From positions 6,090,001 through 6,154,000 of the forward strand of contig NZ_CP126115.1 of the NCBI RefSeq assembly GCF_030123505.1: a stretch of DNA of 64,000 bases, given 5' to 3'. This stretch comes from Neobacillus sp. YX16 (GTDB lineage: Bacteria > Bacillota > Bacilli > Bacillales > Cytobacillaceae). Shown here piece after piece: positions 15,346-34,589 of the stretch. The position numbers were made by a program, and so were the translations under genes. The notes below the pieces were generated by a model that was not told the origin of the DNA, ran no database searches, and worked only from the letters and a program-made list of their open reading frames with translations. The first letter of the stretch is position 1, and every line of letters begins with the position of its first letter.

Positions 15346-16365
15346 TCATCCTAAAATTCTTTGGTAGATAGATTTGGCATGGATAAGATCTTTTGTTCCA
15401 TGAATGAGGGCACGGCCGTCGTTGAAGATGACCATCCGCTCCTCTCCCATTTCTACTGATAAAAGATAGGGGTTCCCTTTTACAATATATCCAAGTGTAC
15501 TAAGCTGTCCTGCCAGCTTCTCTAGCGATACTTCCCCTTGAGTGGATGGACGTATTTGCACCGTATCCCGCCCGCATAAAACAGTGGTTTTCGTCATATT
15601 TTCCTGGTCGAGATAAGGGTAAGTCCTATCCTCGCCACACGATAAACAGCCTGCAAATTTGGCTTTTCCCATTTTCAAACTAGTATATTGGTTTCGCCAT
15701 AAGTCAAAGCTGACAAACGAAGTTCGAACCGCGTCCCAGTCCTCGACTAGCATTTTGAGTGCTTCGGCACTTTGATGAGCAATGACCATTTGGACAGCCG
15801 GTGAGATAATTCCCCCGGTATCACACGTTAACCCCTGCATCGGGATTGTCCGTAACAAACAGTTTAGGCACGGGGTCTTTCCAGGAATGATTGAAAAACT
15901 CATCCCATAACTGCCGACACACGCACCGTAGATCCACGGTATCTGATACTTTTGTGAAACATCATTAATAACCATCCGCGTTTCAAAATTATCGGTGGCA
16001 TCCATGATGATATCGACATCCTTCACCAAATCCTCAAGCATAGCTGGAGTAGCATCACCGATGATTGCTTGAATTTCAACATCTGAATTGATTGCCTTTA
16101 ACCGCTTTTCTGCAGCAGCAGCCTTCGGAAGCTTCTCCGCCACATCCTCTTCGGTATAAAGCTGCTGGCGCTGCAAATTGCTTGATTCGACATAATCTCG
16201 ATCCACTATCGTCAGCCTGCCAACCCCTGCACGAATGAGGATCTCTGCATTCCCAGAACCAAGCGCCCCCGCACCAATCATTAACACATGCTTCGAACGG
16301 ATTTTATCTTGTCCATCTTTTCCGATTCCTGGAAAGAGGACCTGTCGTGAATATCGTTCGTTCAT
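15346..16365 (-). CDS. moeB: Molybdopterin-synthase adenylyltransferase MoeB (ThiF/HesA family)
   Basis: E1-like enzyme that adenylates the C-terminal Gly-Gly of MoaD so that it can be thiocarboxylated. The 339-residue protein has the nucleotide-binding GAGALGSG (31-38), the DRDYVESSNLQRQQ loop, ATDNFETR, and zinc-binding CLNC and CLSC pairs. TCDTGG holds the likely conserved Cys. The C-terminal extra domain (about 260-339) is MoaD-interaction-like, not rhodanese. It closes the molybdenum-cofactor gene run; moaD lies upstream across a tandem repeat. Confidence 0.94.
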   Translation of the reverse strand: MNERYSRQVLFPGIGKDGQDKIRSKHVLMIGAGALGSGNAEILIRAGVGRLTIVDRDYVESSNLQRQQLYTEEDVAEKLPKAAAAEKRLKAINSDVEIQAIIGDATPAMLEDLVKDVDIIMDATDNFETRMVINDVSQKYQIPWIYGACVGSYGMSFSIIPGKTPCLNCLLRTIPMQGLTCDTGGIISPAVQMVIAHQSAEALKMLVEDWDAVRTSFVSFDLWRNQYTSLKMGKAKFAGCLSCGEDRTYPYLDQENMTKTTVLCGRDTVQIRPSTQGEVSLEKLAGQLSTLGYIVKGNPYLLSVEMGEERMVIFNDGRALIHGTKDLIHAKSIYQRILG

Positions 16366-16606: not shown

Positions 16607-16840
16607 TCAGCCGCCGCTTACTGGCGGGATAAAGGCGATTTCATCACCGTCTTGAATCACTTCATCGTCCTGGGCGAATTCTTCGTTAATCGCAGTCATA
16701 ACAGTATCTAATTTTGGAAGGTTGTAGATTGCCGCCAATTCTGCTTTCACTTCACCAACAGTTTTGCCAATAGCATCTATTCTAAGAAACTCTTCGCCAA
16801 CAGCTTCGCGTAAATGAGCGAAAAACATTACTTTATTCAT
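16607..16840 (-). CDS. moaD: Molybdopterin synthase small subunit MoaD
   Basis: Ubiquitin-like sulfur carrier of molybdopterin synthase. The 77-residue protein ends PPVSGG; the terminal Gly-Gly is the site of adenylation by MoeB and thiocarboxylation. The start overlaps the end of moaE by 8 bp, suggesting coupled translation with its partner subunit. Confidence 0.95.
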   Translation of the reverse strand: MNKVMFFAHLREAVGEEFLRIDAIGKTVGEVKAELAAIYNLPKLDTVMTAINEEFAQDDEVIQDGDEIAFIPPVSGG

Positions 16841-17297
16841 TCAAATCGTCCTCCTCCGGCTTACCGCTTGGATAAGCAACTGTTTCGAGCTGGTTGCCCA
16901 TCCACTCTTCGCCATCTTCCCAATGTTCTTTTTTCCAAATCGGGACAATTTCTTTGATCCTCTCAATCGCATAACGATTGGCATCGTAAGCATCGGCACG
17001 GTGGGGAGTGGAAACAGCAATAACAACGGCAATATCCGTGATATCAAGACGGCCGACACGATGGGTTATGGCCACCTGAGAACCTTCCCAGCGCTCTTCA
17101 ATTTCCCTGCCGATTTGCTCAAGCTTTTTCACAGCCATGGCTTCATATGCATCGTAAATTAAAAATAGCGTCTTCTTTCCTTTTGTTAACTCACGAACCG
17201 TGCCAATAAAAGTAGTGATCGCTCCAGCATTACGCTGAACGACCTTATCAATGACCGATTGTATATCAATGGGTTCTTTTGAAATTTGAAAATTCAT
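16833..17297 (-). CDS. moaE: Molybdopterin synthase catalytic subunit MoaE
   Basis: Transfers sulfur from MoaD thiocarboxylate to precursor Z/cPMP to make molybdopterin. The ATG at 17297 with AAGAGGTG upstream gives 154 residues. Family motifs are GAITTFIGTVRE, AYEAMAVKKLEQI and VGRLDITDIAVVIAV, and the catalytic-lysine segment PIWKKEHWEDGEEW. It starts 2 bp after the stop of the upstream moeA-PBP fusion and overlaps moaD. Confidence 0.95.
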   Translation of the reverse strand: MNFQISKEPIDIQSVIDKVVQRNAGAITTFIGTVRELTKGKKTLFLIYDAYEAMAVKKLEQIGREIEERWEGSQVAITHRVGRLDITDIAVVIAVSTPHRADAYDANRYAIERIKEIVPIWKKEHWEDGEEWMGNQLETVAYPSGKPEEDDLNE

Positions 17298-17299
17298 TT

Positions 17300-19234
17300 T
17301 CAGCACCTCTTCAGACCAAATTCTTTGGCTTGCGCATTTTCCACTACTTCATATCCGCCAATCTTTTCAACCTGCTCTTTAAATGATGGTGATTGGATAA
17401 TTTCGATTAATAATTTGCCGCTTTCACTTTCAAAAAAGCTTCTCGTCATCACTAAATCATACTCTTCATCGGCAACAGGAACAAAATCCAGGTCCATAGC
17501 TTTTGCGGCGGGATAAATCCCGAGTCCTGCACTTTGACTGTCCCCATTTACTTCCGCAGCAACAGCTAGGTGTGAAAACATTTCTCTATCGTAGCCTGTG
17601 ATTTCTTCTGAAGAAATCCCGTTTTCCTCAAGAAGCATATCAAGGAGAATCCTCGTTCCTGCCCCTTTTTGACGGTTAACAAAGTTCGCTTTTTTCTCAG
17701 CGATATCCATCAGTGTTTCAATCCCCAGCGGATTTCCCTTTGGTAAAATCCATCCTTGCTTTCTTTTTAAAAATGGATAGAGAACAACATCCGCACCGGC
17801 TAACATTTTCTTAACATAAGAGATATTATATTGCTTTGTGTTTGGATCAAGCAAATGAATGCCCGCTACATGGGCCTCGCCTTTTCGAATGGCCATAATA
17901 CCAGCCATACTGCCAACATGCGCTGAAACGATTTTCATGTCTGCACGTACTCTTTTCACCTGTGAGGATAAAAGATCAATGGTCAAATCATGGCTGCCAC
18001 AAAACATAATTGCATTTTGGATTTCCTCAAGCGGCCTTAATAGCTCGACTTCTGCAAAATCACCTTGTTCATAGCCAATTACGTTGGCTGGTACGACAAG
18101 AAGGCCATCTGCTCTCACATAGGACATCGTTACCCCCGCAGCTCTTGTCAGCGGATTTGCAACAAATTGTCCATTCACATAGCCGATATTCATTCGTACA
18201 AAATCCTCGGCACCCATACCCGAAACAATTCGGCGGCCAAGCTTGACGGTAACCGTTTGCCTTTTTGGCTCAGGGATTTGTAAATACTTGCAAATCAGCG
18301 GCCGGACAAACCATTCTAAGGACAAATAGGCGGAGACAGGATATCCTGGAACACCTACGACAATCTTCTCATTTATTTTTCCTAAAATAACGGGTTTCCC
18401 AGGTCTTGCAGCCACACCGTGGGTAAAGACCGTTCCAATTTCTCCGATGATATGAACGGTATAATCCTTGGAACCTGCTGAGGATCCAGCATTGATGACA
18501 ATAATATCCGAGTCTTTCGCCGCTTCAAGTAATACAGACTTTATCATTTCAGGGTCGTCCTTCACAATTCGGTGGAGTCTTGGCTCCCCGCCCCAATCTT
18601 TTATAAAATTTGCGAATACCGTTCCATTAAACTCAATAATGTTTCCTGAAGATAGTACACTATTTGCCTCAACAAGCTCATTACCCGTTGGAATGATGGT
18701 GACAACTGGCTTTTTCGCAACCGGAATCTGAAGATGCTGCGATGCTAAAAGAATGCCTAAATCCGCTGGTCTAAGAATATGTCCCTGCGGGAAAAGCATT
18801 TCCTCCTGTACAATATCCTCGCCAATAGGGCGAATATGCTGCCATGGTGTTGCAGGCTCAATAATTTCAATCGTTTCTTCATCTATCATATCGACATGTT
18901 CAATCATAATTACCGCATTAAATGGAACTGGAATCGCATTTCCTGTATCCACTATAGCAAAATCAATTCCCAGCTTAAGCTGAAGTGGATTTTGCTCATG
19001 TGCGGAATACGTTTTTTCAGCGATTACCGCAATTCCATCCATGGCAGATGCATGGTAATGAGGCATTGATACACTTGCAAAAATTGGCTCAGCCGTTACA
19101 CGGCCAAGGGCATCACTTGTAGGAATCATTTCTATTTCAAGGGGCAGAGAAAAGTTCTCGAGAATTTCTCGCTTCGCTTCCGATCGGGGTTTGTCCTCTA
19201 AATATATTTTCCGTTTATACGTTTTGCGGTCCAT
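17300..19234 (-). CDS. MoeA-like molybdopterin biosynthesis protein fused to a periplasmic-binding-protein-like domain
   Basis: 644 residues. The first ~400 form a MoeA/gephyrin-type molybdenum-insertion domain (MPHYHASAMDGIAV, IIPTGNELVE, INAGSSAGSKDYT, VVGVPGYPVSAYL). The last ~230 are a PBP-like domain of the type seen fused to MoeA in Firmicutes and archaea (FCGSHDLTIDLL, AHVGSMAGIMAIRKGEAHVAG). It has no signal peptide, so the binding domain is cytoplasmic and may sense molybdate or a cofactor form; this is inference. The ATG has AGGGGG upstream. It sits 14 bp downstream of a second, ordinary moeA. Confidence 0.9.
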   Translation of the reverse strand: MDRKTYKRKIYLEDKPRSEAKREILENFSLPLEIEMIPTSDALGRVTAEPIFASVSMPHYHASAMDGIAVIAEKTYSAHEQNPLQLKLGIDFAIVDTGNAIPVPFNAVIMIEHVDMIDEETIEIIEPATPWQHIRPIGEDIVQEEMLFPQGHILRPADLGILLASQHLQIPVAKKPVVTIIPTGNELVEANSVLSSGNIIEFNGTVFANFIKDWGGEPRLHRIVKDDPEMIKSVLLEAAKDSDIIVINAGSSAGSKDYTVHIIGEIGTVFTHGVAARPGKPVILGKINEKIVVGVPGYPVSAYLSLEWFVRPLICKYLQIPEPKRQTVTVKLGRRIVSGMGAEDFVRMNIGYVNGQFVANPLTRAAGVTMSYVRADGLLVVPANVIGYEQGDFAEVELLRPLEEIQNAIMFCGSHDLTIDLLSSQVKRVRADMKIVSAHVGSMAGIMAIRKGEAHVAGIHLLDPNTKQYNISYVKKMLAGADVVLYPFLKRKQGWILPKGNPLGIETLMDIAEKKANFVNRQKGAGTRILLDMLLEENGISSEEITGYDREMFSHLAVAAEVNGDSQSAGLGIYPAAKAMDLDFVPVADEEYDLVMTRSFFESESGKLLIEIIQSPSFKEQVEKIGGYEVVENAQAKEFGLKRC

Positions 19235-19248
19235 CTATTTTATCCCCC

Positions 19249-20481
19249 TCATCGTGTTGCAATCACAGGTACATAGTCTCCCTGTGAAATACCCTCTTTT
19301 TCTGAAATAATTTCAACAATACCATCGCTTTTTACTAAGGTAGTAATTAACCCTGATTTTCCAATAATCGGCTCCGCCCACCATACGCCTTCTTTCTCGA
19401 TTAAACGAACACGAATATAATCGGAACGCCCAGGTGCAGAAGGAATATTCTTCGTAATCCGGGCAAAAATTCTATCAGGCTTCTTATCAATTTTTTCACC
19501 TTTTAACTTTTGAAGGATTCTCTTGCCAAACAGCATGAAAATAATCATCGCTGAGGCAGGATGCCCTGGCAGACCTATAACAGGTTTCCCATTCGCCATT
19601 GCAAGTATCGTAGGTTTCCCCGGTTTGATCGATATGCCATGAACGAACACGCCTGGTGAACCTAGGGACTGAATCACTTGTGTTGTGTAGTCCTTTGCTC
19701 CAACCGAGCTTCCCCCTGAGAGAATTAAGCAGTCTACTTCATTATATAAAGCCTGTGCTTTTTGCTGAAACTCCTGATAGTCATCCTTCACAATTCCACC
19801 GTACTCAACCTCAACATTCCATTGTTTTGCGAGCCCCGAAATCGTCAAATAGTTAATATCACGGATTTGACCTTCTGAAAGTTTTTCTGTTTGATAGGGA
19901 ACAATCTCGTCACCTGATGATAGATACCCGACCTTTAGCTTACGATAGACACATACATGGCTAATACCTAGTGAGGCAATTGCACCTAACTCTTGCGGAC
20001 GAATCAGGGTTCCTTCAGGAAGGAGGATTTCCCCTTCACGGATATCCTCACCTGCACGAATAATATTTTCACCAGGGGCCACTGGCTTGTAGGTGTTTAA
20101 TAGTCCGTCATGGTCTTCACAATGTTCAATCATAATTACGCTGTCACTGCCTGCAGGAATCATCCCGCCTGTTGGAACATAGACGGCTTCTCCTTGACCG
20201 ACAGGAATACCTGCCGACTCTCCCATTGCAACTTCTCCCACCACCGTTAAAAAACCCGGCATGGAATCAGAGGTTCCATATGTGTCCCGTGCTTTCACAG
20301 CATAGCCATCCACCGTCGAGCGGTCAAAGCCAGGGACATTTTCCTTTGCGGTGACAGGCACCGCTAGTATATAATTATGCGCCTCTTCTAGTGAGCGAAT
20401 TTCCGTATCTTTTATTGCTGGGATTTTTTCTTCTATCATTTCAAAAGTTTCTTCAACTGTTTTAACTTTGAAAAATTGCAC
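19249..20481 (-). CDS. moeA: Molybdopterin molybdenumtransferase MoeA
   Basis: Inserts molybdenum into adenylated molybdopterin. The 410 residues have the full MoeA set: PGFDRSTVDGYAV, PTGGMIPAGSDSVIMIEH, SSGDEIV, LSGGSSVGAKDYTTQ and GLPGHPASAM. The GTG start is preceded by GGAAGGATGTAAGG. Residues AVPVTA near position 40, where relatives usually read closer to AEDVTA, are encoded by a copy of the recurrent 13-mer (20350-20362). Two MoeA-type genes in tandem are common next to molybdo-/tungsto-enzymes. Confidence 0.94.
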   Translation of the reverse strand: MQFFKVKTVEETFEMIEEKIPAIKDTEIRSLEEAHNYILAVPVTAKENVPGFDRSTVDGYAVKARDTYGTSDSMPGFLTVVGEVAMGESAGIPVGQGEAVYVPTGGMIPAGSDSVIMIEHCEDHDGLLNTYKPVAPGENIIRAGEDIREGEILLPEGTLIRPQELGAIASLGISHVCVYRKLKVGYLSSGDEIVPYQTEKLSEGQIRDINYLTISGLAKQWNVEVEYGGIVKDDYQEFQQKAQALYNEVDCLILSGGSSVGAKDYTTQVIQSLGSPGVFVHGISIKPGKPTILAMANGKPVIGLPGHPASAMIIFMLFGKRILQKLKGEKIDKKPDRIFARITKNIPSAPGRSDYIRVRLIEKEGVWWAEPIIGKSGLITTLVKSDGIVEIISEKEGISQGDYVPVIATR

Positions 20482-20502: not shown

Positions 20503-21099
20503 CTAATCAGCTTGAAGCCATTTTTTTGCGTCCTCATACTCATGGGGATGATTCATATTGAAAAAAACTCGCTCCATATCAATATTGCTATTGGCCTGCA
20601 GCTCTTTTTCCGTTACATAAAGGACATTTAGATGTTCAAGCAGATGTTTGATTGGAAGACGTCCATTTTCAATACATTCTTCAATTTTCGCTACACTCTT
20701 CTTTTGAAAAACCGCACATAGAGTTTGCATTTTTCCATTAATAACTGGAACTAAGGCATCATGATGGTCAATCATATTTACAAGGGTCGCAGCTAATTCG
20801 CCAGAAATAAAAGGCATATCACATGCTGTAATGAAATTCACATCATAGTCCGAAGCCATTAAGCCGGCATGAAATCCTGCAAGCGGTCCCTTTCCAGGAT
20901 AGTGATCGGACACCATTTTCACTCCTAAAAATTGATAGGATTCCATATCGTTGGTAACGAGAATGATATCATCAAAGTAGATTTTGAGAATATCAACCAT
21001 TCTTTCGATTGTGGTCTTCTCGTTTAGTTTTAGGAGAGCCTTGTTTGTGCCCATTCTGCTCGATTTCCCGCCCGATAAAATAATAGCCGCAGCTTTCAT
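20503..21099 (-). CDS. mobA: Molybdenum cofactor guanylyltransferase MobA
   Basis: Attaches GMP to Mo-molybdopterin to make the bis-MGD cofactor used by DMSO-reductase-family enzymes such as the formate dehydrogenase encoded nearby. The 198-residue protein has the GTP-binding LSGGKSSRMGTNKALL (residues 8-23) and the ACDMPFI metal-binding motif near 97-103. It lies between fdhE and moeA. Confidence 0.94.
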   Translation of the reverse strand: MKAAAIILSGGKSSRMGTNKALLKLNEKTTIERMVDILKIYFDDIILVTNDMESYQFLGVKMVSDHYPGKGPLAGFHAGLMASDYDVNFITACDMPFISGELAATLVNMIDHHDALVPVINGKMQTLCAVFQKKSVAKIEECIENGRLPIKHLLEHLNVLYVTEKELQANSNIDMERVFFNMNHPHEYEDAKKWLQAD

Positions 21100-21131: not shown

Positions 21132-21254
21132 TTGTCTAGCTACAGCGCCTAGGGGCTCGGGGTCATAAGCCAATCCGTCAAGAAGGTAAAGACCAACCTT
21201 CTCGCCGGATCGTCTAATGCCTGTCACCCCTGGACAAGGCGCTTCCGCTTTTCG
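21132..21254 (-). repeat. Dispersed repeat R1 overlapping the end of fdhE
   Basis: A copy (GAAAAGCGGAAGCGCC first on the minus strand) whose first ~40 bp are read as the last 12 codons of fdhE before a stop. The gene end therefore appears to have been altered by this element. Confidence 0.85.
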
Positions 21255-22050
21255 CTTCGCCCACCGCTTGATATCCTTGCTCTTGAGCTACAAAATCAAG
21301 ATGAATTGTATTTAAGTCCAGCATGGCTGCTGAAGGCTTGCTGAGATATTGTCTTGTATCTATCACTTTAATATATCCTGTACACTTTTCGCAAACCTGA
21401 ATTTGTGAGGATGCATCCCCTTCAATGGTTATATATTGAATGGTTTTATGGTCATCATTACCGCAGTGTGCACATTCAATTCGTTTTGCATGCCAATGAG
21501 CAAGACAGCGAGGGCATGTCATTACTTTTTTCCCTTCATCTTCAAGAACGGCAAGTCGAGCTGGTTCACCGCAAACAGGGCAGCCTGCGCCTGGAACAGC
21601 ATGAGTGATTTCGTGCTGGATTTTCTCTGCTATTAGCTGTAGGTAAGGTCGCAGTGCTGTTTCTGCTAAGAATTGCGGGATCCACTCTTCAAGTCCATTT
21701 TCCTCTGCAAAACTAGCAAAATACATACTATTAAAAGAAAATGCCTCATCTATCCAGCGAATCGCCGTTTCTTCGTTTAATAGAGCACTAATTCCAGCAA
21801 GCTTTGTTTCAAGCTCAGGATTTTTTTGGGACAATAATCCATTTATCTCCTCTATCCACTGTAAGAATAGTGGAATTTTGAAATTAATAGACGTTAATGC
21901 CGCCGCCGGCACCCCCGCTGACATTGGTGCCTTATCAAGGTTCGGTGTAATTGATTCTGGATTGATGCTCTTCTTCCAATTCTCTTGAAGGGTTAAAAAA
22001 TCCTTCTGCAAATTCTGATATTCTTTCGAAACAACAGATTTTTTCATCAT
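21214..22050 (-). CDS. fdhE: Formate dehydrogenase accessory protein FdhE
   Basis: Cytoplasmic rubredoxin-like protein needed for assembly of Tat-exported formate dehydrogenases. The 278-residue protein has four CxxC pairs in order: CPVC, CPRC, CAHC, CEKC, the iron/zinc-binding signature of FdhE. AGAGGTG precedes a double ATG. The final residues (KSGSALSRGDRH) are encoded by an R1 repeat, so the original C-terminus probably ended shortly after QGYQAVGE or was replaced; the core domains are intact. Confidence 0.92.
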   Translation of the reverse strand: MMKKSVVSKEYQNLQKDFLTLQENWKKSINPESITPNLDKAPMSAGVPAAALTSINFKIPLFLQWIEEINGLLSQKNPELETKLAGISALLNEETAIRWIDEAFSFNSMYFASFAEENGLEEWIPQFLAETALRPYLQLIAEKIQHEITHAVPGAGCPVCGEPARLAVLEDEGKKVMTCPRCLAHWHAKRIECAHCGNDDHKTIQYITIEGDASSQIQVCEKCTGYIKVIDTRQYLSKPSAAMLDLNTIHLDFVAQEQGYQAVGEAKSGSALSRGDRH

Positions 22051-22235: not shown

Positions 22236-22964
22236 TCAAGCGCCTTTTTTCTTTTTCTTGTCAGGGCTGGTTGGTTTATGCGGGTCGTCTAGTTTAGGGA
22301 AGTTGCCTTTTTTAACCTCTTCCTCATACCATTCTGTATAGTGTTCCTTTGCCCACCATGCAGGCACTTCACCTGTAATAACACCGGTATATCCGGGTTT
22401 AGAATTTTTGTGTATAACAGATAGATAGATGTGTCCGACCACTACCGCAATCGCAAGACCAAAGCCTACGTTGTGCAATAAATATCCCCACTGAACAACC
22501 GCTCTTGGGAAGAATTGCGGGAACCACATTGGTAAGCCAGAACCAATGATTAAGATTGCTGTGAAAATTTGAATGATTGAGTTAATCTTTTCACCAGCGT
22601 TAAAGAATGTTTGCTTTACGTGCTTAAAATTGAAACCAAATAGCTCCTTAACAAACTCTGTAAAGAACTCTAGGTCACGTTTCTTCCAGGTAACAAGTTC
22701 TTTCATCCAAAGCTTGAAGCCCTTGAAGTCAAAAATTACCCAGATAAACGTTGGTGTAATAAACGCCACGGCGAAAATTCTGTGAAGTAGACGTGCACCT
22801 TCTGGTCCGCCAAGCACCGGGTATAACCAGTCAAAAAACTCTGTGTACATTGGCAAGGCTGTGATATAGAGAGCAATAAATGAAATCGCGTTAACAGCAT
22901 GCGCCCAAACAAATGCCTTTGAAAAACGTTTCACCTTTACAGTCGAATTTTGAGGTTTACTCAT
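22236..22964 (-). CDS. fdnI: Formate dehydrogenase cytochrome b subunit (FdnI-like)
   Basis: Membrane subunit that passes electrons from the iron-sulfur subunit to the quinone pool. The ATG at 22964 (GGAGGTGAGCACC before it) gives 242 residues; the longer frame overlaps fdnH and is rejected. Four membrane segments are visible (about 20-38, 58-76, 120-138, 160-180). Heme-ligand candidates are the His residues in VWAHAVNAISF, LLHRIFAVAF, YLLHNVGFGL and VVGHIYLSV. The C-terminal tail is charged and ends in polylysine. The start overlaps the fdnH end by 8 bp, supporting coupled translation. Confidence 0.93.
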   Translation of the reverse strand: MSKPQNSTVKVKRFSKAFVWAHAVNAISFIALYITALPMYTEFFDWLYPVLGGPEGARLLHRIFAVAFITPTFIWVIFDFKGFKLWMKELVTWKKRDLEFFTEFVKELFGFNFKHVKQTFFNAGEKINSIIQIFTAILIIGSGLPMWFPQFFPRAVVQWGYLLHNVGFGLAIAVVVGHIYLSVIHKNSKPGYTGVITGEVPAWWAKEHYTEWYEEEVKKGNFPKLDDPHKPTSPDKKKKKGA

Positions 22965-23787
22965 GGTGCTCACCTCCGTCTTCGTTTTTACCATTCTTTT
23001 TCTTACTAATAATTGTATTGGTAATAAAAGCACCGACAACCGCCATCGTGGTTGCACCAATCATCATTTTACCAATTGGCTGTGCATAGTCCTTCCAAAT
23101 CACAGCGGAAGTTGGAACTTTAGGATTTTCAGGTAAACCATATACAGATGGCTTTTCTGCTAATACATAAACCGTATGCGTTCCGCCGACACCTTGTGGA
23201 TTGTAGACCATTGCATTTGGATAACGATCTTTAATTTGTTTCACACGATCTTCTGCTTTCTTGATCATCGCAGCTTTGCCGCCGAATTCCATAGCCCCTG
23301 TATGACAAGTAGTTACACAGGCAGGCTGCAAGCCTTCTTCAAGACGGTCTGTACACATTGTACATTTATTTGCTTTACGATATTTGTCACCATTTTTATC
23401 AACGTATTCCTTAAGGGAAATAACTTCAAATGGACAGTTATTTACGCAATATCCACAGCCTACACATTTCTCATGATCAATGACAACAGTACCAAAATCC
23501 GTGTAGCTAATTGCATTTTCCGGGCAAACCTTTTCACAGGCAGCATCTGTACAGTGGAAGCATGCAGAGTGGCGGAAAAGGTAGTCAAGATTGCCTTTTG
23601 AATCTTCATGCTCGATATATTGCAGTACATTCCAAGTATCTGCCGTTGTCTTAGCATGTGACTGAGCGCTCCCTAAGAAGTCCTGTGGTTCTGCTGGAAG
23701 GTCATTCCAGTTTTTACAGGCAACCATACAGGCGCGACAGCCGTCACACTTGGTCACATCAACAAATTTCACATATTCAGCAGCCAT
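22957..23787 (-). CDS. fdnH: Formate dehydrogenase iron-sulfur subunit (FdnH-like)
   Basis: Electron-transfer subunit with four [4Fe-4S] clusters. The 276-residue protein has cysteine groups CDGCRACMVAC (Cys14, 17, 20, 24), CFHCTDAACEKVCP, CVGCGYCVNNCP and CTMC ... CVTTC. A C-terminal membrane segment (MMIGATTMAVVGAFI, about 243-260) anchors it, as in E. coli FdnH. Its ATG overlaps the fdnG stop (TAATG) and GGAGGG sits inside the end of fdnG, so the two are translationally linked. Confidence 0.95.
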   Translation of the reverse strand: MAAEYVKFVDVTKCDGCRACMVACKNWNDLPAEPQDFLGSAQSHAKTTADTWNVLQYIEHEDSKGNLDYLFRHSACFHCTDAACEKVCPENAISYTDFGTVVIDHEKCVGCGYCVNNCPFEVISLKEYVDKNGDKYRKANKCTMCTDRLEEGLQPACVTTCHTGAMEFGGKAAMIKKAEDRVKQIKDRYPNAMVYNPQGVGGTHTVYVLAEKPSVYGLPENPKVPTSAVIWKDYAQPIGKMMIGATTMAVVGAFITNTIISKKKNGKNEDGGEHHE

Positions 23788-26774
23788 TAGTCAGCCCTCC
23801 TTACGTTACAGAGGAATGCCTTATATTCAGGAATAGTTGTATTCGCATCCCCGATATGAGGCGTCAGGCGATTAGCTGTCTCCCCAGTTGCGATACCTTT
23901 ATAACCAAAATGCCACGGCATTCCGATTTGATGAACATCTTTGCCACCGATCTTATGAGGCTTGAAGCGCTTTGTTACCATTGCATAAGCTTTGACCTCG
24001 CCTCGTGCAGAGCTGACAATGACTTTATCTTTATTTTTAATGCCCTTTTCTTTTGCTAGCTCTTCGCTCATTTCAATATACATATGAGGTACAAGCTCTG
24101 ATAACCATGCTTGGTTACGTGTCATCGTACCAGATTGCCAGTGCTCACTTACTCGGTAAGTGGTTGCCACAATTGGGAAATCTGCCTTGAAGCCGCGCTC
24201 ATTAAATTTGCCATCAAATAATTGAATAGCAGGGTTAATTTCCTGGCTTGAAAATGGATTCTTAACCGGGCTTTCAAACGGCTCATAGTGTTCAGGGAAC
24301 GGACCATCGTTTAATGTTGGTGCATAAACTCCACCTACACCATCATTCATCATGATAAATGGATCCTCAAAGCCAGCGTCACCAGGCCTCCTTGTTGCAA
24401 CAAAGTCCGGAACGTCCACTCCTGTCCATTTACCTTGTACTGCGTCATACCATACAACCGCTTTTTCCTTATTGTATGGAACACCGTTTGGATCACATGA
24501 AGCGCGATTATAAAGAATACGGCGATTCATCGGCCAAGCATACGACCAGTTTAGATATAAACTCATTCCGGTATCTTTCTTATCGCGGTTTTTCGCACGG
24601 TTCTTGCCTTCTTCAGGGTAGAATCCGCAATAAATCCAGTTACCTGAACATGTTGAACCATCATCCTTTAGATTTCCAAAGCCGGCAATTAGCTTGCCTG
24701 TATTCACGTCATACCCGTTGATCTCCTTACAAACAAGGTCGATATCTGGGTGATGACCTTCACCATAGTTCCAATAAAGAGCATTAATTGGAGCTGCGGC
24801 TGGACCTGCTTCATTTTTATATAAACCTTTGATTCTAGTAGCAAGCTCATGGATAATCTCTAAGTCTGCTTTTGATTCACCAAGCGGCTTAATTGCCTGC
24901 CAGCGGTACTGCATCCAGCGGGCACTGTTAGATATACTTCCTTCTTTTTCATAGGAAGAACATGCTGGAAGAAGGAATACCTCTGTGTTGATCTTAGATG
25001 GGTTACTGCCAGCCTCTTCTTGCCAGAAGGCAGAAGTTTCTGTTTCCCAAAGGTCAACAGCTACTAACCATTTTAAATTGGAAAGTGCTTCTTTTTCTTT
25101 TCCTGCATTCGGTCCGCCGACTACTGGGTTTGTTCCGAAAAGGAATGCACCTTCTAGCGTGCCGTCATACATAGCCTTAAATAAGTTAATGTGTGAGTAG
25201 TTTTTATTGCCTTTTGGCAGGTATTGATAGCCAAATTCATTTGCTGCTGTTGCATTCGGTCCATACCAAGCTTTTAATAAGCTGACAATGAACTTACGCT
25301 TGTTACTCCAATAACCTGTTTTTGGTGTTTCTTTTTCCATGTGGCCAGCGAGTGTTGCATTCTCTGGAACCTTAGATGTTGGTGCATTTAAGTAGCCTGT
25401 TAAGTTACCATATAATAATCCAAAGTCAGTTGAGCCTTGTACGTTAGACTCACCACGCATTGCGTTAACCCCGCCGCCTGGTAAACCAACGTTACCAAGT
25501 AGAAGTTGAATCATGGCAAACGCACGAACGTTTTGTGTTCCAACTGTATGCTGGGTTGTTCCCATTGCATACATGATGGTTCCTGCTTTACCGACTTGAC
25601 CCGTTGCACAGAAAGCTTCATATACCTTTAATAGGTCGGCTTTTGGTGTTCCAGTGATTTTTACAACTGTGTCAACATCATAGCGAGAGTAATGTTTTTT
25701 CATTAGTTGGAAAACGGATCTTGGGTGTTCTAATGTGAAGTCTTTAACAAGTTTTCCTTCGGCATCTTTTTCAAATGCCCATTGTGTTTTATCATAAGCA
25801 CGCTTATCTTCGTTATATCCAGAGAATAAGCCGTCTTCAAATTTATAGCTTGGACTTACAATAAAGCTAGCGTTTGTATATTTAGCAACATACTCTTTGT
25901 GGTAAAGATTATTTTCTAGCGCATATTTGATCATCCCGCCGATAAACGGAATATCTGTTCCAGAGCGTAAAGGGGCATAAATATCAGACATTGACGATGT
26001 TCTTGTGTAACGAGGGTCAACGCTTACTATTTTTCCGCCATTCTCTTTTGCTTTTGTTAACCACCTAAAGCTAATTGGATGGTTCTCAGCTGGATTTGCT
26101 CCCATAATCAACGCACAATCGGTATACTGCACATCATTCCAACTGTTAGTCATTGCTCCACGACCAAATGAAGGTGCCAGACCGGCAACCGTAGAACTAT
26201 GTCATATTCGTGCCTGGTGCTCTAAATAGGTGACACCAAGCCCTCTCATCATTTTAGAAAGCAGGTACGTCTCTTCATTATCAAGAGCTGCTCCGCCAAG
26301 GCTTGCAATTGCCTCGGTCTTATTCACTGTCATGCCATCTTCACTTACAACAAAAGTTTTATCACGAGTTTCTTTTGTACGCTTGGCAATGGTTTCATAC
26401 ATCCATTCCCAATCCTTTTCTTCCCATTTATTACTGCCTGGTGCACGATAAAGCGGTTTCTTAATACGTTTTTCAGAAGTATATAACTGTCTAATTGTTG
26501 TTCCTTTACTGCATAGCTTACCTTCGTTAATTGGGTTATCCGGATCCCCTTCCGTATAAACCACAGTGTTGTCCTTTGTATGGACTAAAATCCCACAGCC
26601 AACGCCGCAAAAGCAGCAAATAGTTGGTGTAACAGTTGATTTGGCAATTTTGAATTCTTTTGTGCTGGCATATGCTTTTTTCTCATTAAAGCCTAGTTCA
26701 ACTACTGCTAGAGTGGCTGCAGTAGCACCAGACAACTTTAAGAATTGCCGGCGGTTTAAGTTGATTTCAACCAT
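23787..26774 (-). CDS. fdnG: Selenocysteine-containing formate dehydrogenase catalytic subunit (FdnG-like)
   Basis: Oxidises formate to CO2 at a bis-MGD molybdenum/tungsten centre. Read through one in-frame UGA (26202-26204) it is 995 residues with selenocysteine at 191. The N-terminus carries a Tat signal (NRRQFLKLSG, likely cut after KKAYA), then the [4Fe-4S] ligands Cys53, 56, 60 and 88. Around the UGA the protein reads EHQARI-U-HSSTVAGLAPSFGRGAM, matching the active-site block of E. coli FdnG. The two halves are in the same frame with 16 sense codons between the UGA and the next Met. GGAAGGAG precedes the ATG. Reading it as two genes or a nonsense mutant fits less well, because a SECIS hairpin follows the UGA. 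Confidence 0.93.
26173..26190 (-). promoter_or_regulatory. bSECIS hairpin for selenocysteine insertion
   Basis: On the minus strand GGTTGCCGGTCTGGCACC folds as GGU-(bulged U)-GCC, apical loop GGUCU, GGCACC. It begins 11 nt after the UGA. The bulged U, the loop GGUCU and the 11-nt distance match what is known of the E. coli fdhF SECIS bound by SelB. It lies inside the coding region, as bacterial SECIS elements must. Confidence 0.9.
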
Positions 26775-27002: not shown

Positions 27003-27764
27003 TCAATGCATCTCTACAGCGGGTATTTCCACTAAATCATTTTCAACTCGGCCTGTTGAGGTGTAAATATTAGCCATTTTCCCTCGTAAATAGCCAATAA
27101 CCTCTATATTTAAATATTTAGCCAATTGAACGGCCTGCTTGGTAGCTGCTGTTCGTGAACCAATAACAGGAAAGCCGAATTTCGCTGCTTTGGAAAGCAT
27201 TTCATATGAAACCCTGCCGGTTGTTAATAAAACTAACCGTTCAGGCTGTAAACCCATTCGTAGTGTGTGGCCAATGATCTTATCGACGGCATTATGCCGC
27301 CCAATATCTTCACGGACGGTGATATTGCCTTCTTTATCTACAATACAGGCTCCATGCATGCCGCCAGTTTCCAAGTAAAACGGTGAATTCCGAGCAAATT
27401 CACTCTGTCTTTTTAATAAATAACTCAATTTATATCTATATTCAGTAGCTACTTTTTGAAAATTTTTCACGTCTGTCATCGAGAAAAATGTGACTCCGCG
27501 TCCGCACCCAGCCGTATAGTGTTTCTTTTTCGTAAATAACTCTTCTTCATTAAATCCATTCAGAAGTGAGACGTTGATGCTTCCCATCTCCTCATTAATG
27601 GTAATGGATTCAATCTCACTCGCTTCCTGAATAAATCCTTCAGAAAACAAATAACCATAGGCCCAATCCTCTAAATCATGTTTAGTTAGCTGAAATACGG
27701 CAATCTCATACCCATTTAAAATCAGGGTAATCGGATATTCATCAGGACATCCTTTGCGGTACAT
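27003..27764 (-). CDS. fdhD: Formate dehydrogenase sulfurtransferase FdhD
   Basis: Delivers sulfur from the cysteine desulfurase to the molybdenum cofactor, needed for active formate dehydrogenase. The start is the ATG at 27764 (GAAGGGGG upstream), giving 253 residues; an upstream TTG frame start is rejected. The active-loop cysteine is in AGCGRGV (Cys87), and the conserved ETGGMHGACIVD and REDIGRHNAVDKIIG blocks are present. It is the first gene of the minus-strand formate dehydrogenase/cofactor block. Confidence 0.95.
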   Translation of the reverse strand: MYRKGCPDEYPITLILNGYEIAVFQLTKHDLEDWAYGYLFSEGFIQEASEIESITINEEMGSINVSLLNGFNEEELFTKKKHYTAGCGRGVTFFSMTDVKNFQKVATEYRYKLSYLLKRQSEFARNSPFYLETGGMHGACIVDKEGNITVREDIGRHNAVDKIIGHTLRMGLQPERLVLLTTGRVSYEMLSKAAKFGFPVIGSRTAATKQAVQLAKYLNIEVIGYLRGKMANIYTSTGRVENDLVEIPAVEMH

Positions 27765-28211
27765 TTGCTTTCCCCCTTCAGGAATTAACATTCTAGGCGT
27801 TTTCAATTGTAATAATGTTAACCGACCTTCTCAGCGACATTTATCACAATCTACAGCACACCTAAATGAATTAGCTATGCCTTTTAAATTTATAATAAAT
27901 ATCGAAGCCTTAATCACAGGACTTTGACGAATCTCGGTCGTATTTGTGTCAGATTATCGAATTTTTTTAAAATCAACTGCCCAAATCACAATTTGTAAGC
28001 GATTCCAAATATTTTTTTGTATCTTTGGTACTATCGTACGATGAGTCTTTTTTCCCGGAAGTAAGAATTATCACATATAAACATCTAAATAATATAGAAA
28101 CAGTCATTTGTCATTTTTCTGACAAAATCATGTTTTAAATTTCTGCTATATTTCTACGTTTGATTTATAATAGGAATAGTGTTTTTACAACTAGCTTTAG
28201 GAGGAATACAT
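27765..28211. promoter_or_regulatory. Divergent regulatory gap between fdhD and pdxK
   Basis: 447 bp of AT-rich sequence with no gene. It holds a dyad TTTGTCA-N6-TGACAAA (28107-28126), which resembles a variant Crp/Fnr-type box, and a TATAAT (28166-28171) 40 bp before the pdxK start without a good -35. If that TATAAT is used, the dyad centre is near -61. No riboswitch fold was recognised. Confidence 0.4.
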
Positions 28212-30428: not shown

Positions 30429-30459
30429 AAAAAACCTTCGTCCATGACGAAGGTTTTTT
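30429..30459. terminator. Bidirectional terminator between bshB2 and the Fnr-like gene
   Basis: ACCTTCGTC-CAT-GACGAAGGT stem with A-tract before and T-tract after; it overlaps the convergent regulator's stop. Confidence 0.92.
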
Positions 30460-31201
30460 AATAGGCTGGATTGATTAAGGTGCACAGCTTGCACATATCA
30501 AGGATGATGATTTTCCTTGATTTCATATCAATGATTCCTTCTTTTTTCAACTTCGAAAATACACGGCTTACGCTTTCCCGTGATGTCCCCACTACCGTAG
30601 CAAACTCTTGAATCGTCAAGGGGATTTCAATATTCCATCTCGAGGTGGATGTATTAAATTTATTCCCTAACCGCTCTAACGCCTTTACTGTCTTCGCATA
30701 AACATCCAACAAGGCAACGTCTCTTAAGGTGGAAGTCATTTCACGGAGAGCATCGCTCATGTATTCGATCATTTGAACCGCAAGATCGGGATATTCATGA
30801 AGACCCTTCTCTAATTCCATTTTATCTAAAAAGAAAAGCTGACCATCTTGGAGCATAGTGGCCGTCGCCGGATAGAGCTGTGAGGTTTTTGAGAATAAAC
30901 AAGCCTCCGCAAACACATCACCCTTTTGCTTCATACAAACAATGATTTCATTACCGTTCTCATCCTGCTTTGTTAGCTTTACCGCTCCGGAATGTATAAA
31001 AAATACCCCTTTGCCCACTTCATCTTCACAAATAACCTGTACTCCTTTTTTAATGGTTAATGTTTGAATCCGTTTGGCGATAAGGTGAATGGATTTTGCC
31101 GATAAATCCTTAAAAATGACTATTTTCCGTAAAAAGTCCTCGATTTTCAATTCTCTTACTCTGCCAAATGGCTGTTCCTGTAAAGCATGTATGGGGTTCA
31201 T
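30458..31201 (-). CDS. Crp/Fnr-family transcriptional regulator
   Basis: 247 residues: a cyclic-nucleotide-binding-type beta-roll (about 25-140), a long dimer helix, and a winged HTH with recognition region TIQEFATVVGTSRESVSRVF (196-215). C-terminal Cys237 and Cys240 recall the cluster-binding tail of B. subtilis Fnr, but a third C-terminal Cys is absent; other cysteines are 58, 89 and 101. GGAAGGAGGAG precedes the ATG. It is divergent from the nos genes with two Fnr-type boxes in between, so it probably controls N2O reduction and itself in response to oxygen or NO; this is inference from position. Confidence 0.88.
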   Translation of the reverse strand: MNPIHALQEQPFGRVRELKIEDFLRKIVIFKDLSAKSIHLIAKRIQTLTIKKGVQVICEDEVGKGVFFIHSGAVKLTKQDENGNEIIVCMKQKGDVFAEACLFSKTSQLYPATATMLQDGQLFFLDKMELEKGLHEYPDLAVQMIEYMSDALREMTSTLRDVALLDVYAKTVKALERLGNKFNTSTSRWNIEIPLTIQEFATVVGTSRESVSRVFSKLKKEGIIDMKSRKIIILDMCKLCTLINPAY

Positions 31202-31626: not shown

Positions 31627-32070
31627 ATGAATAAGGCAATAATCAGCTTTGTCGTTAGCATCGTAATTGGTTTTGGTCTTGGATACTTGGTGTTTGGCGT
31701 TATTATGGGAGATTCCGATAAAGAGCCTCAAGTCGCTCAAACAGAACAAATAGACGAAGCAAGTGAAACTGAAGGCAACAAGGAAGAAGCAAAAGAGGAA
31801 ACAGCAACGGTGGATGCCAATAACATCCTTAATAGTAAAGGCTGTCTCGGCTGTCACGCAGTTGATTCTCTTGGATTAGCAGGCGGGGCAACGGGTCCAG
31901 ACCTTTCAAAAGCCTTCACAGATGTTGAAGGTAAGCATGGAAAATCAATCGATGAATTCTTAAAAGAACCAACTTCCGCGGTTATGTCGAGCGTTATTGG
32001 CGGCAGCCCGCTAACAGATGAAGAACGCACGCAAGTGTTAGATATGTTGAAGCAAGCTTCAGAAAAATAA
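31627..32070 (+). CDS. nosC: Membrane-anchored c-type cytochrome (NosC-like)
   Basis: Monoheme cytochrome c probably delivering electrons to NosZ. The 147-residue protein has an uncleaved N-terminal membrane anchor (AIISFVVSIVIGFGLGYLVF), an acidic Glu-rich linker (30-62), the heme site CLGCH (Cys73, Cys76, His77) and a likely Met ligand at 120 (SAVMSSV). GAAGGAGGGGG precedes the ATG. It is the first gene after the Fnr box, and nosZ follows 16 bp later; nosC next to nosZ is typical of clade II clusters. Confidence 0.9.
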   Translation: MNKAIISFVVSIVIGFGLGYLVFGVIMGDSDKEPQVAQTEQIDEASETEGNKEEAKEETATVDANNILNSKGCLGCHAVDSLGLAGGATGPDLSKAFTDVEGKHGKSIDEFLKEPTSAVMSSVIGGSPLTDEERTQVLDMLKQASEK

Positions 32071-32086
32071 TAAGGTGGTGTAATTG

Positions 32087-33955
32087 ATGAAGAAATGGAT
32101 TCCTATCGCATCAGGTTTACTAGCAGGCTTTGTAGCAGCAACGATTTCCTTTGCTGACTTTTCAAATAGTACAAACAATCAAGTAGCTTCTAGTACTACC
32201 AAAAGCGATGCTGAAAAAGTTTATGTACCATTCGGCGAAAAAGATGATTACTACCTATTCGCATCAGGCGGCCACTCCGGTCAAATGTTTATCTATGGTG
32301 TTCCATCTATGCGTCATATTCGGACTGTACCAGTATTCTCACCAGACTCTGCAACAGGATATGGGTTTGACGAGCATTCTAAAAAGTTATTAGGCGACTA
32401 CACATGGGGAGATCTTCATCACCCAGCATTCTCAGAAACGAATGGTGACTATGACGGTAAATATATGTTTGCAACGGATGTCGGAAACAGCCGTGCAGCT
32501 GCAATGGATTTAGAAACCTTTACCGTAAAAGACATTATTAATGTTCCGAATACTAGCGGCCCGCACTGTGCGGCCTTCGTTACGCAGAATACAGAGTATA
32601 TGTTCCTGCCAACACGTTTCGCTGTGCCAATCGGCTCTGAATACAAGTCATTAGACGATTACAGCGACCAATACCGTGGTGTAATGTCTGCCGTAACGTT
32701 TGATCAAAACAAAGATAAGCTCAATATTGCCTACCAGGTTGCTCTTCCACCATGGTCCTATGATTTATCGGACGCTGGTAAGAAATCCTCTGCGGATTGG
32801 GCAGTCATGACAACTTACAATACAGAAGAAGCAACAACAAATCTTGAAATTAACGCTTCACAGGCTGACCGTGACTTCATTGTTCTTTTTAACTGGAAAG
32901 AGCTTGTGAAAATGGTTGCAGACGGACAGTATGATGAAGTTACTGGTCAAAAAATGATTTTCCCTGAAAAGCATAAAGGCGGTATCTACCTTGTTCCTGT
33001 TGCGAAATCACCACATGGTGTGGACGTTACGCCTGATGGAAAACACTTTATCGCTTCTGGAAAGCTAGCACCATCGATGACAGTATTCTCTTTTGAAAAA
33101 GCATTTGAAGCGATTGAAAAGCAAGATTTCGCTGGCGAGCGCAACGGTATTCCAATTATCAACTATGATTCTATTATGGAGAGAGAAGTTAACCCTGAAA
33201 ACGCACTTGGACCGCTTCACACTCAATTTGATGACAAAGGAATGGCTTACACAACAATGTTCATTTCTTCTGAAATCGTGAAATGGGATCCAAAAACAGG
33301 CGAAACGTTAGATCGTGTACCTGTACAATATTCACCTGGACACTCTGTAGCAGCTGAAGGTGATACAGTTGCACCTGATGGAAAATGGCTGATTGCTCTT
33401 AACAAAATTGCCAAAGACAGCTATTTATCTGTAGGACCTTCACATCCTGAGTCCATGCAGTTAATCGATATCAGCGGCAAAATGAAGGTGATTCAATCTT
33501 CACCGGTTAACCCTGAACCACACTACGCGCAAATCATTAAGGCAGATAAGATTAAAACAATTGAAGTATATCCGAAGGATGAAAACAATAAGCTTGCGAC
33601 GTATAAGCAGGATCAGGCTAGAATCGAACGTAATGGAAACGAAGTTCATGTCTATGGTATTGCTATGCGTTCGAAGTTTATCTTTGATGCAAAAGCAAAA
33701 CGTCCTGATGTGATTGAAGTCAATCAAGGAGACAAGGTGTTTATCCACTTAACGAATACTGATTTTGATGAGGATATTACCCACGGATTTGCCATCAACA
33801 GCTATAACTTAAACATTGAAGTTCAGCCTGGCCAAACGAATACAATCGAATTTACTGCAGATAAAGCTGGAACGTTCCCGCTTTACTGTACTAACTTCTG
33901 TTCAGCACTACACCAAGAAATGACCGGCTACTTCCTTGTAAAGCCTAATAAGTAA
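32087..33955 (+). CDS. nosZ: Nitrous-oxide reductase NosZ, clade II (Sec-exported)
   Basis: Reduces N2O to N2 at the tetranuclear CuZ site. The 622-residue protein has a plain Sec signal (MKKWIPIASGLLAGFVAATI) without twin arginine, a hallmark of clade II. Candidate CuZ histidines are in DLHHPAFSE, SGPHCAAF, SPHGVDV, GPLHTQF, SPGHSV and EPHYAQ. The C-terminal CuA domain has CTNFCSALHQEM (Cys601, Cys605, His609, Met612). The ATG at 32087 is preferred over TTG 32084 because AAGGTGG is 6-8 nt upstream. nosB, nosD, nosY and nosF follow. Confidence 0.96.
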   Translation: MKKWIPIASGLLAGFVAATISFADFSNSTNNQVASSTTKSDAEKVYVPFGEKDDYYLFASGGHSGQMFIYGVPSMRHIRTVPVFSPDSATGYGFDEHSKKLLGDYTWGDLHHPAFSETNGDYDGKYMFATDVGNSRAAAMDLETFTVKDIINVPNTSGPHCAAFVTQNTEYMFLPTRFAVPIGSEYKSLDDYSDQYRGVMSAVTFDQNKDKLNIAYQVALPPWSYDLSDAGKKSSADWAVMTTYNTEEATTNLEINASQADRDFIVLFNWKELVKMVADGQYDEVTGQKMIFPEKHKGGIYLVPVAKSPHGVDVTPDGKHFIASGKLAPSMTVFSFEKAFEAIEKQDFAGERNGIPIINYDSIMEREVNPENALGPLHTQFDDKGMAYTTMFISSEIVKWDPKTGETLDRVPVQYSPGHSVAAEGDTVAPDGKWLIALNKIAKDSYLSVGPSHPESMQLIDISGKMKVIQSSPVNPEPHYAQIIKADKIKTIEVYPKDENNKLATYKQDQARIERNGNEVHVYGIAMRSKFIFDAKAKRPDVIEVNQGDKVFIHLTNTDFDEDITHGFAINSYNLNIEVQPGQTNTIEFTADKAGTFPLYCTNFCSALHQEMTGYFLVKPNK

Positions 33956-33967
33956 AATGGATGGTAT

Positions 33968-33994
33968 GGGTATCAATTGATTCAATTGGTACCC
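33968..33994 (+). other. Intercistronic hairpin after nosZ
   Basis: GGGTATCAATTGA / TTCAATTGGTACCC can pair over about 12 bp with a tiny loop, 13 bp after the nosZ stop, without a strong T-tract. It may partly terminate or protect the nosZ mRNA end, giving more nosZ than downstream message. Confidence 0.55.
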
Positions 33995-34022
33995 TTCTCC
34001 GTTTAGAAAGGACTTGTTTTAC

Positions 34023-34589
34023 ATGAAAGCAAAAAAATTATCACTGGTTTCATCACTGGTGATTACTTTAGCAGCAGTTTTAGTGGTTCTATCCTTATTT
34101 TTTCCCTGGTGGCAAATGATTTTCTTTGCGCCGCAATATCCAGAAGGATTAAATATTATTGTTTATCCAAATAAGCTTGAAGGAGAAATCGATATTGTTA
34201 ACGGGTTAAATCACTATATTGGAATGGAAAATTTCAGTGAAGAGAATTTTCCTGAATTAGCGTATCTCTCTTACTTAGTCATTGGTTTGGCAGCACTTAC
34301 CCTCTTGACGGCCATCCTGCGCAAGAAAGCAGTGCTCTATGGATTAATTGGTTTGTTTATCATAGGCGGTGGACTCGGTGTTTGGGACCTTACCCGTGCA
34401 CTTCGTAAATTCGGCACCAACTTAAGCCCGACTGCTCCGATAAAAATTGACCCATTTGTTCCGCCCCTTTTAGGGCATAATACAGTTGCAAACTTTGTCA
34501 CCGAAAGTGTGCTTGGATACGGTGCGTATTTCCTTATTGCAGCCTTTATTTTATTACTAATTCCGTTATGGAAGGATCGAACAAGATGA
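34023..34589 (+). CDS. nosB: NosB, clade II nos-cluster membrane protein
   Basis: Membrane protein characteristic of clade II nos clusters; its exact role is unknown. The 188-residue protein has four hydrophobic segments (about 7-30, 80-98, 105-125, 162-182), with conserved-looking FFPWWQMIFFAPQYPEGL after the first. The start is the ATG at 34023 (AGAAAGG upstream); a TTG three codons earlier has too short a spacing. Its stop overlaps the nosD start (ATGA). Confidence 0.86.
   Translation: MKAKKLSLVSSLVITLAAVLVVLSLFFPWWQMIFFAPQYPEGLNIIVYPNKLEGEIDIVNGLNHYIGMENFSEENFPELAYLSYLVIGLAALTLLTAILRKKAVLYGLIGLFIIGGGLGVWDLTRALRKFGTNLSPTAPIKIDPFVPPLLGHNTVANFVTESVLGYGAYFLIAAFILLLIPLWKDRTR

Follow-up and report, generated by a model that had tools for sequence, protein, structure and literature searches.

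The closest described relatives of the locus studied here are the formate dehydrogenase (FDH) FdnGHI of E. coli (1kqf) and the solved selenocysteine (Sec)-containing enzymes 9qm0 and 8cm4, which we take to be of the Desulfovibrio type. In E. coli fdhF, the passages of PMC8659212 give U17, G23 and U24 as essential positions (we assume that the count starts from the UGA). For bacterial SECIS elements (bSECIS), the relevant passages of PMC13188914 describe an apical loop of 3–9 nt, an upper stem of 4–16 bp, a loop lying 16–37 nt from the UGA, and G in the first two loop positions. Table 2 of Zhang et al. 2006 (PMC1794560) lists three families and three selenoproteins for Bacillales, which the passages of that paper leave unnamed, whereas the YX16 genome carries six candidate genes, FDH included; the families in its Table 1 include FdhA, SelD, SelW-like and Prx, as in YX16.

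The window, a stretch of 64,000 nucleotides from Neobacillus sp. YX16, contains a gene for an fdnG-type FDH alpha (catalytic) subunit of 995 codons at 23787..26774 on the minus strand, with an in-frame UGA, putatively for selenocysteine, at codon 191 (26202..26204, minus strand). Translation of this region with TGA as Sec gave 995 residues, with U191 as the sole recoded codon in the context QARI-U-HSSTVAGLAPSFGRGAM, confirming the single UGA followed by 804 codons that an earlier note on this DNA had described. The protein matched TIGR01553 (FDH-N alpha) with 1272.7 bits over residues 6–992 (cut-off, 814.2), and PF10518, PF04879, PF00384 and PF01568, representing the Tat signal, Fe4S4, molybdopterin and dinucleotide-binding domains, were above their cut-offs, in agreement with the Tat signal described in the earlier note. 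The gene is best explained as encoding the catalytic subunit of a respiratory molybdenum FDH of the FDH-N type, which, judging from the family, would be exported by the Tat pathway. Among solved structures, the best match was 9qm0/8cm4 (1042 bits), and homology with E. coli FdnG (1kqf) extended over the full length of the alpha subunit (940 bits). Codon 191 aligned with the catalytic residue of 9qm0, bearing out the proposal that the UGA occupies the family active site. Differences were found next to this site: VAGL follows it in YX16 but VPAL in 9qm0/8cm4, and YX16 has U-H-S-S as opposed to the U-H-x-P motif listed in the passages of PMC13188914.

As in E. coli FdnGHI, FdnH- and FdnI-like genes lie directly behind the alpha subunit gene, encoding an iron-sulfur subunit (22957..23787; TIGR01582, 227.5 bits; cut-off, 334.7) and a cytochrome b subunit (22236..23060; TIGR01583, 83.9 bits; cut-off, 115.85; a TTG start is listed, and the true start is probably downstream). 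Unlike the E. coli proteins, these clear homologues score below the equivalog cut-offs. The earlier note had also named FdhD and FdhE as neighbours. The FdhD sulfurtransferase (27003..27806; TIGR00129, 183.2 bits) exceeded its NCBIfam cut-off of 140.9, while the FdhE-like accessory protein (21214..22050; TIGR01562, 50.5 bits; cut-off, 187.65), like FdnH and FdnI, was a clear match below the equivalog level. The molybdenum cofactor genes comprise a MobA-like guanylyltransferase (20503..21099) and a MoeA-like molybdotransferase (19249..20481), both with matches below curated cut-offs, a MoeA fusion protein for molybdopterin biosynthesis (17300..19234; NF011068, 717.8 bits; cut-off, 534), a MoaE-like molybdopterin synthase subunit (16833..17306; below cut-off) and a MoeB/ThiF-type adenylyltransferase (15346..16365; NF009123, 536.3 bits; cut-off, 510). 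All of these neighbouring genes are on the minus strand. The 64-kb window yielded neither a tRNA nor an Rfam match above the gathering scores, and the promoter-like and terminator-like sites around the operon (18 and 7, respectively) were uninformative, being about as numerous in shuffles (18.9 and 7.1).

A search for selA, selB, selD and tRNA-Sec had been set beforehand as a test of UGA decoding. In the YX16 genome, a single contig (C1) of 6.23 Mb, all four were present above curated cut-offs, and decoding was not refuted: selA (C1:3345097-3346479; 561 bits), selB with SelB winged-helix domains (C1:2510551-2512410; 344 bits), selD, itself with one TGA (C1:3347491-3348417; 403 bits), and tRNA-Sec (selC) with a TCA anticodon (C1:2124323-2124415; 62.1 bits; cut-off, 47). 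By analogy with the family, SelA, together with selenophosphate from SelD, would form Sec-tRNA-Sec, and SelB would deliver it to UGA codon 191, directed by a hairpin starting 11 nt downstream. The selenol of the exported enzyme would then be expected to ligate the metal, and electrons may reach quinone by way of the iron-sulfur subunit and cytochrome b.

This predicted hairpin, GGU-U-GCC[GGUCU]GGC-ACC (26173..26190, minus strand), was assigned as the upper hairpin of a bacterial SECIS from its fold and conservation. The 38 nt past the UGA alone fold into it (‒7.7 kcal/mol); its 6-bp stem with one bulged U, its GGUCU loop and the 18 nt from the UGA to the loop agree with the bSECIS description in the passages of PMC13188914. 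U17, G23 and U24 (UGA being 1–3) were the same in all 50 distinct sequences, and the YX16 hairpin, which keeps them, is in this respect like that of E. coli fdhF. On folding, neither of two Cys-codon FDH genes formed the hairpin; one locus, L137, deviates at several hairpin positions. Because the hairpin hardly varies, it provides no covariation: the 50 distinct sequences contained no double change, a result that shuffles equal, and the 67-nt region folded no better than shuffles (z ‒0.69). A single-sequence fold suggested that the SECIS continues into a lower stem of 10 pairs; this extension was rejected, as 84.6% of cells were paired in the 50 distinct sequences and two of the pairs were disrupted, one in 25 sequences and the other in 28. 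Codon choice was strongly restricted at the hairpin. The mean commonest-codon frequency at codons 195–200 was 0.985, rank 1 of 129 six-codon windows, and that at codons 194–201 was 0.911, compared with 0.607 for other conserved-residue codons; five conserved-residue codons outside 194–201 likewise reached at least 0.98.

The UGA itself is highly conserved. TGA stood at codon 191 in 108 of 110 loci and a Cys codon in the other two, with TAA or TAG in none, and among distinct homologues the UGA was kept in 89 of 91, the remaining two again having Cys codons. In 150 related genomes, 71 of 72 homologous matches contain one TGA, indicating that its presence is not due to chance; the 72nd is a contig-broken fragment that begins at residue 246. 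The same TGA is found in separately deposited records, such as those of Bacillus sp. 7884-1 and Neobacillus niacini (L061, L062), which makes a sequencing error at 26202–26204, for which no support was found, a negligible concern.

Were the UGA a real stop, the locus would be a pseudogene or would encode two separate products, of 190 and 788 aa. The standard code (table 11) does split the frame in this manner, into 26202–26774 (190 aa) and 23787–26153 (788 aa), and the database entries support the remark of the earlier note that automated annotation would split the gene: of 7737 database matches at or below the E-value limit, 114 of the best 120 are pieces of 725–789 aa that hold only the part downstream of the UGA. 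Against termination, the codon coincides with the catalytic residue, no other stop interrupts the frame, and nearly all distinct genes retain it; all four sel genes are present; dN/dS, compared for the parts before and after the UGA, was far below 1 (0.025–0.10 in 13 of 14 comparisons, the 14th being saturated); and, from the domain positions, the 788-aa piece would be without the Tat signal and Fe4S4 domain. A real stop is therefore very improbable; the UGA and hairpin are conserved, and the coding sequence before and after the UGA is under purifying selection. Together with the sel genes, this conservation and selection lead us to infer, with a probability of about 0.97, that UGA codon 191 is decoded as selenocysteine. 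Compatible with Sec decoding is a dual use, in which the UGA would mainly terminate under low selenium and the two products would vary with supply. The passages of PMC8659212 report low readthrough (1–3%) at such UGA codons and discuss a role of RF2, but this argument is not specific to the present locus and no role is indicated here for the putative short product, so that dual use is a tentative and rather doubtful addition.

All six full-length proteins among the best 120 of the 7737 matches have Cys at the site, and two of them apparently correspond to the genes L113 and L115. The Cys-type FDH-N of Robertmurraya siralis (L113; P0010) belongs to the same family and is 68% identical to the YX16 protein, but has TGT at the site, no SECIS hairpin, and VPGL in place of VAGL; a UGA copy (L124) occurs in the same assembly. 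A rule by which the hairpin, through its constraint on the codons, requires Ala (VAGL) in Sec forms, with Pro (VPGL) in Cys forms, fits the 108 Sec loci and the six full-length Cys proteins, but is not general, as a further Cys form (P0157) has Gly and the solved Sec enzyme has Pro.

We then consider the selenium trait in 60 sampled genomes of the genus Neobacillus. The selA gene, tRNA-Sec and a UGA-containing SelW gene were each present in 59, and this FDH in 48, all within those 59; the other 11 carry selA, tRNA-Sec and UGA-SelW without it. In the 60th genome, G050, selA is decayed, and tRNA-Sec, selD, UGA-SelW and this FDH are absent. These data show that Sec is an almost constant feature of the genus as sampled, and the statement that selenocysteine use is uncommon in Bacillaceae is not supported for this genus, where selA was over the cut-off in 59 of 60 genomes. 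The control genomes that matched selA did not include Bacillus subtilis, and G091, a draft assembly of a relative outside the genus, has the UGA-FDH and selA without a tRNA-Sec match under the stricter filters. Readthrough can occur at UGA codons, and codon 191 might be read as another amino acid, such as Trp or Cys by near-cognate decoding, independently of selenium. The loss of this FDH and SelW in G050, which is without intact selA, tRNA-Sec and selD, argues against such readthrough, as does the conservation of the hairpin at synonymous sites and its absence from the two Cys genes; selenium-independent reading is thus highly unlikely.

Besides FDH, five YX16 genes have a UGA where it would be expected, with a hairpin behind it: those for SelD and SelW and three of the peroxiredoxin family. 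FDH and these five are known kinds of selenoprotein. The trio consists of a Bcp-like protein (TPGU), an AhpC-like protein (FVUPT), in which Ala takes the place of a C-terminal Cys of the best solved relative, and a redoxin-like putative lipoprotein (UGLC). Among own-genome matches to PF00085 (thioredoxin), TGA was present in none of seven. Compensatory changes were observed in the SelD and SelW hairpins. For selD, GCGCAA[GUU]UUGCGY was preferred, because its pairing was complete (100%) and double changes occurred in three of its pairs (0 of 500 shuffles), over GGUCC/GGACC, which was shown by the 39-nt fold but had 89.6% pairing and no double changes. The SelW hairpin had one pair with double changes; 333 of 500 shuffles reached one pair, and none its four cells. 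A Cys-type SelD (L172) forms a strong, different hairpin in the same region (‒13.7 kcal/mol), which argues against a simple reading of the folds.

Neobacillus, which forms spores, probably has a broad selenoproteome, with at least six selenoproteins in the YX16 genome, three of the peroxiredoxin family. One SelB would probably read two hairpin types, one E. coli-like in FDH (bulged U and GGUCU loop) and the other bulge-less with GUU- or GG-containing loops. Because the 11 sampled genomes without this FDH retain selA, tRNA-Sec and UGA-SelW, the trait itself would probably be maintained for the most part by SelD and SelW, perhaps with the peroxiredoxins. The database entries for this FDH call for correction, as 114 of the best 120 matches hold the part after the UGA only. 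G050, in which the trait is lost, and the Robertmurraya siralis assembly, in which Sec and Cys copies occur together, represent natural experiments, and these bacteria could allow a genetic separation of selenium use in respiration from that in peroxide defence.

The formate dehydrogenase gene lies at 23787–26774 of the window on the minus strand. Translated with TGA as selenocysteine, it gave 995 residues with a single TGA at codon 191 (26202–26204) and 804 codons thereafter, so that the frame and UGA placement described in the earlier note were exact; without recoding, the frame would be read as two ORFs of 190 aa and 788 aa. The product was identified as the alpha subunit of FDH-N (TIGR01553, 1272.7 bits against a cut-off of 814.2), with Tat, Fe4S4, molybdopterin and dinucleotide-binding domains and a 940-bit match to structure 1kqf. 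Its UGA site was aligned to the catalytic residue of 9qm0, a solved selenocysteine-containing formate dehydrogenase. Among the neighbouring genes, FdhD scored above its cut-off, FdnH, FdnI and FdhE were clear homologues under the equivalog cut-offs, and molybdenum-cofactor genes were found downstream of the fdh genes.

The genome is represented by one contig (C1) of 6,231,385 bases, which contains the window at C1:6090001–6154000. The earlier note had proposed a search for selA, selB, selD and tRNA-Sec, and all four were present: tRNA-Sec, with the anticodon TCA, at C1:2124323–2124415 (62.1 bits; gathering score 47), selA at C1:3345097–3346479, selB at C1:2510551–2512410, with the SelB winged-helix domains, and selD at C1:3347491–3348417, with one in-frame TGA of its own. 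The search for selB covered this genome only. The sel genes are dispersed over the contig; only selA and selD are near each other, separated by a SelW-like gene. The decisive genomic test of the formate dehydrogenase finding was positive, and the finding is right.

This formate dehydrogenase was detected at E ≤ 1e-60 in 68 of 150 related genomes; 71 of the 72 matches carried one TGA, and the remaining match was a fragment beginning at residue 246. Codon 191 was compared at 110 loci, namely 30 loci from the 150-genome search and 80 named loci (the best 80 of 342 relatives), with genomes partly shared between the two sets. It was TGA at 108 loci, TGT at one and TGC at one, corresponding to 91 distinct genes (89 TGA, two Cys). 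TGA was restricted to codon 191 in the 110 aligned frames, none of which contained TAA or TAG. On the two sides of the UGA, dN/dS between the window gene and seven relatives was 0.025–0.10 in 13 of 14 comparisons, and the 14th (locus L110, part after the UGA) was saturated. The named relatives with the enzyme include Neobacillus, Mesobacillus, Cytobacillus, Robertmurraya, Schinkia and a few MAGs outside Bacillales. One assembly of Robertmurraya siralis contained a Cys-type (TGT, L113) and a Sec-type (TGA, L124) FDH-N gene together; the L113 match was approximately 530 bases longer than expected.

Codons 195–200 were the most codon-conserved run, with a mean commonest-codon frequency of 0.985 (rank 1 of 129 six-codon windows, based on 388 codons with a conserved residue). 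The mean was 0.911 for codons 194–201 versus 0.607 for the others, five of which likewise reached 0.98. Folded alone, the 38 nt after the UGA were predicted, at −7.7 kcal/mol, to form a 6-bp stem that contains one bulged U and is capped by the loop GGUCU. With the UGA counted as positions 1–3, U18 was unpaired in the predicted fold, and U17 and U18 were interchangeable as the bulge. U17, G23 and U24 were invariant in 50 distinct sequences, and U18 nearly so; a passage of a review describes U17, G23 and U24 as essential in E. coli fdhF, its numbering being taken as from the UGA (PMC8659212). The hairpin shape satisfies the bSECIS constraints as given in a passage of PMC13188914. The upper helix was 99.0% paired, and covariation was silent because this helix hardly varies. 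The two Cys-type genes, L113 among them, did not form the hairpin. An extended lower stem under the hairpin was not supported, and a 67-nt fold of the UGA region was no better than shuffles (z −0.69).

In the genus sample of 60 genomes, this one included, selA and tRNA-Sec were each above the cut-off in 59 genomes (78 and 77, respectively, of the 100 genomes searched overall). The earlier note's claim that selenocysteine use is uncommon in Bacillaceae is therefore wrong for this genus. A SelW-like gene with one TGA was found in 36 of 36 and 23 of 24 genomes, i.e. 59 of 60, and SelD with one TGA in 36 of 36; among the other 24, one genome, G050, was searched for SelD. The window's type of formate dehydrogenase was present in 48 of the 60. 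The sole exception for selA, tRNA-Sec and SelW was G050 each time: its selA consisted of fragments with stop codons, and searches detected no tRNA-Sec (E ≤ 1e-7), SelW or formate dehydrogenase, and no SelD above the cut-off. This genome represents an apparent natural loss of the selenocysteine trait. Outside the genus, both SelD genes without TGA came from genomes without selA above the cut-off (G066 and G080). Against this pattern, G091, also outside the genus, has formate dehydrogenase and selA but no tRNA-Sec match.

The SelW/Rdx-like selenoprotein gene (L059:8080–8400, minus strand; PF10262, CMQU) and selD, with its in-frame UGA (L059:8423–9523, plus strand; GUGCK), are on one stretch of C1. 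The SelW hairpin, CCGCGA[GUU]UCGCGG, was paired in 100% of cells among 24 distinct sequences from 30 loci, and four of the 24 carried a double change at one pair; its covariation score was reached by none of 500 shuffles, while one double-changed pair also occurred in 333 of the 500. The covarying 6-bp SelD hairpin with a GUU loop, GCGCAA[GUU]UUGCGY, was likewise paired in 100% of cells (23 distinct sequences), and three pairs were changed on both sides, as in 0 of 500 shuffles, a comparison in which kinship alone can beat shuffles.

A PF00578 search of the genome gave 14 matches, three of them with one TGA, and a PF00085 search gave seven, none with TGA. The three genes encode a Bcp-like protein (L201:1725–2204, minus strand), in which the U of TPGU was aligned to the conserved Cys in a peroxiredoxin of solved structure; an AhpC-like protein (L202:1663–2280, plus strand), with FVUPT aligned to FVCPT; and a putative redoxin-like lipoprotein (L203:1537–2076, plus strand) that carries UGLC and has weak similarity to solved peroxiredoxins. 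From knowledge of the families, we take these UGA sites to be catalytic positions. A SECIS-like hairpin followed the UGA in each gene. Homologues were sought in stretches of relatives picked by presumed gene order, a search silent on absence elsewhere in those genomes. Same-site TGA homologues of the Bcp-like and AhpC-like genes were found in G055 only (40 stretches, six genomes), and those of the UGLC gene in eight of 19 genomes sampled (20 stretches), one matching residues 1–92 only. With the gene of this genome counted, nine UGLC genes were compared, and an A-U to G-C double change in the stem was observed in three of them.

Elsewhere in the window, a dispersed repeat starting TGTCTAGCTNCAGCGCCTAG was present in eight copies at ≤3 mismatches, four of them exact (shuffle mean 0.00), at 5098, 7171, 14724, 15193, 21133, 22149, 26943 and 43399; three of them (21133, 22149 and 26943) occupy gaps that separate or flank fdh genes. 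The nitrous-oxide reductase genes NosZ and NosD (31627–35902; NosZ TIGR04246, 889.9 bits) are accompanied by a Crp/Fnr-type regulator (30458–31201). 'Sec-dependent' in the name of TIGR04246 presumably denotes secretion, not selenocysteine.

In the portions of the literature consulted, Zhang et al. 2006 already list three selenoprotein families and three selenoproteins for Bacillales, and the families they give for bacteria include FdhA, SelD, SelW-like and Prx (PMC1794560); FdhA and SelD are given as the most widespread bacterial selenoproteins (PMC5029168), and Bcp-type peroxiredoxin with TxxU as a listed family (PMC9312934). Among the matches listed, the database name of a close relative (Mesobacillus selenatarsenatis) already includes 'selenocysteine-containing'. 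Open-licence titles and abstract beginnings on Neobacillus, Bacillaceae, Bacillales and Bacillus (Bacillus azotoformans included) did not describe the Neobacillus selenoprotein set, which may be published elsewhere. The six candidate selenoprotein genes are a lower bound because, beyond genes met incidentally, only two thiol-redox families were screened. The formate dehydrogenase is of a type ordinary for selenium-using bacteria, and the wider selenoproteome is of more interest than this enzyme itself.
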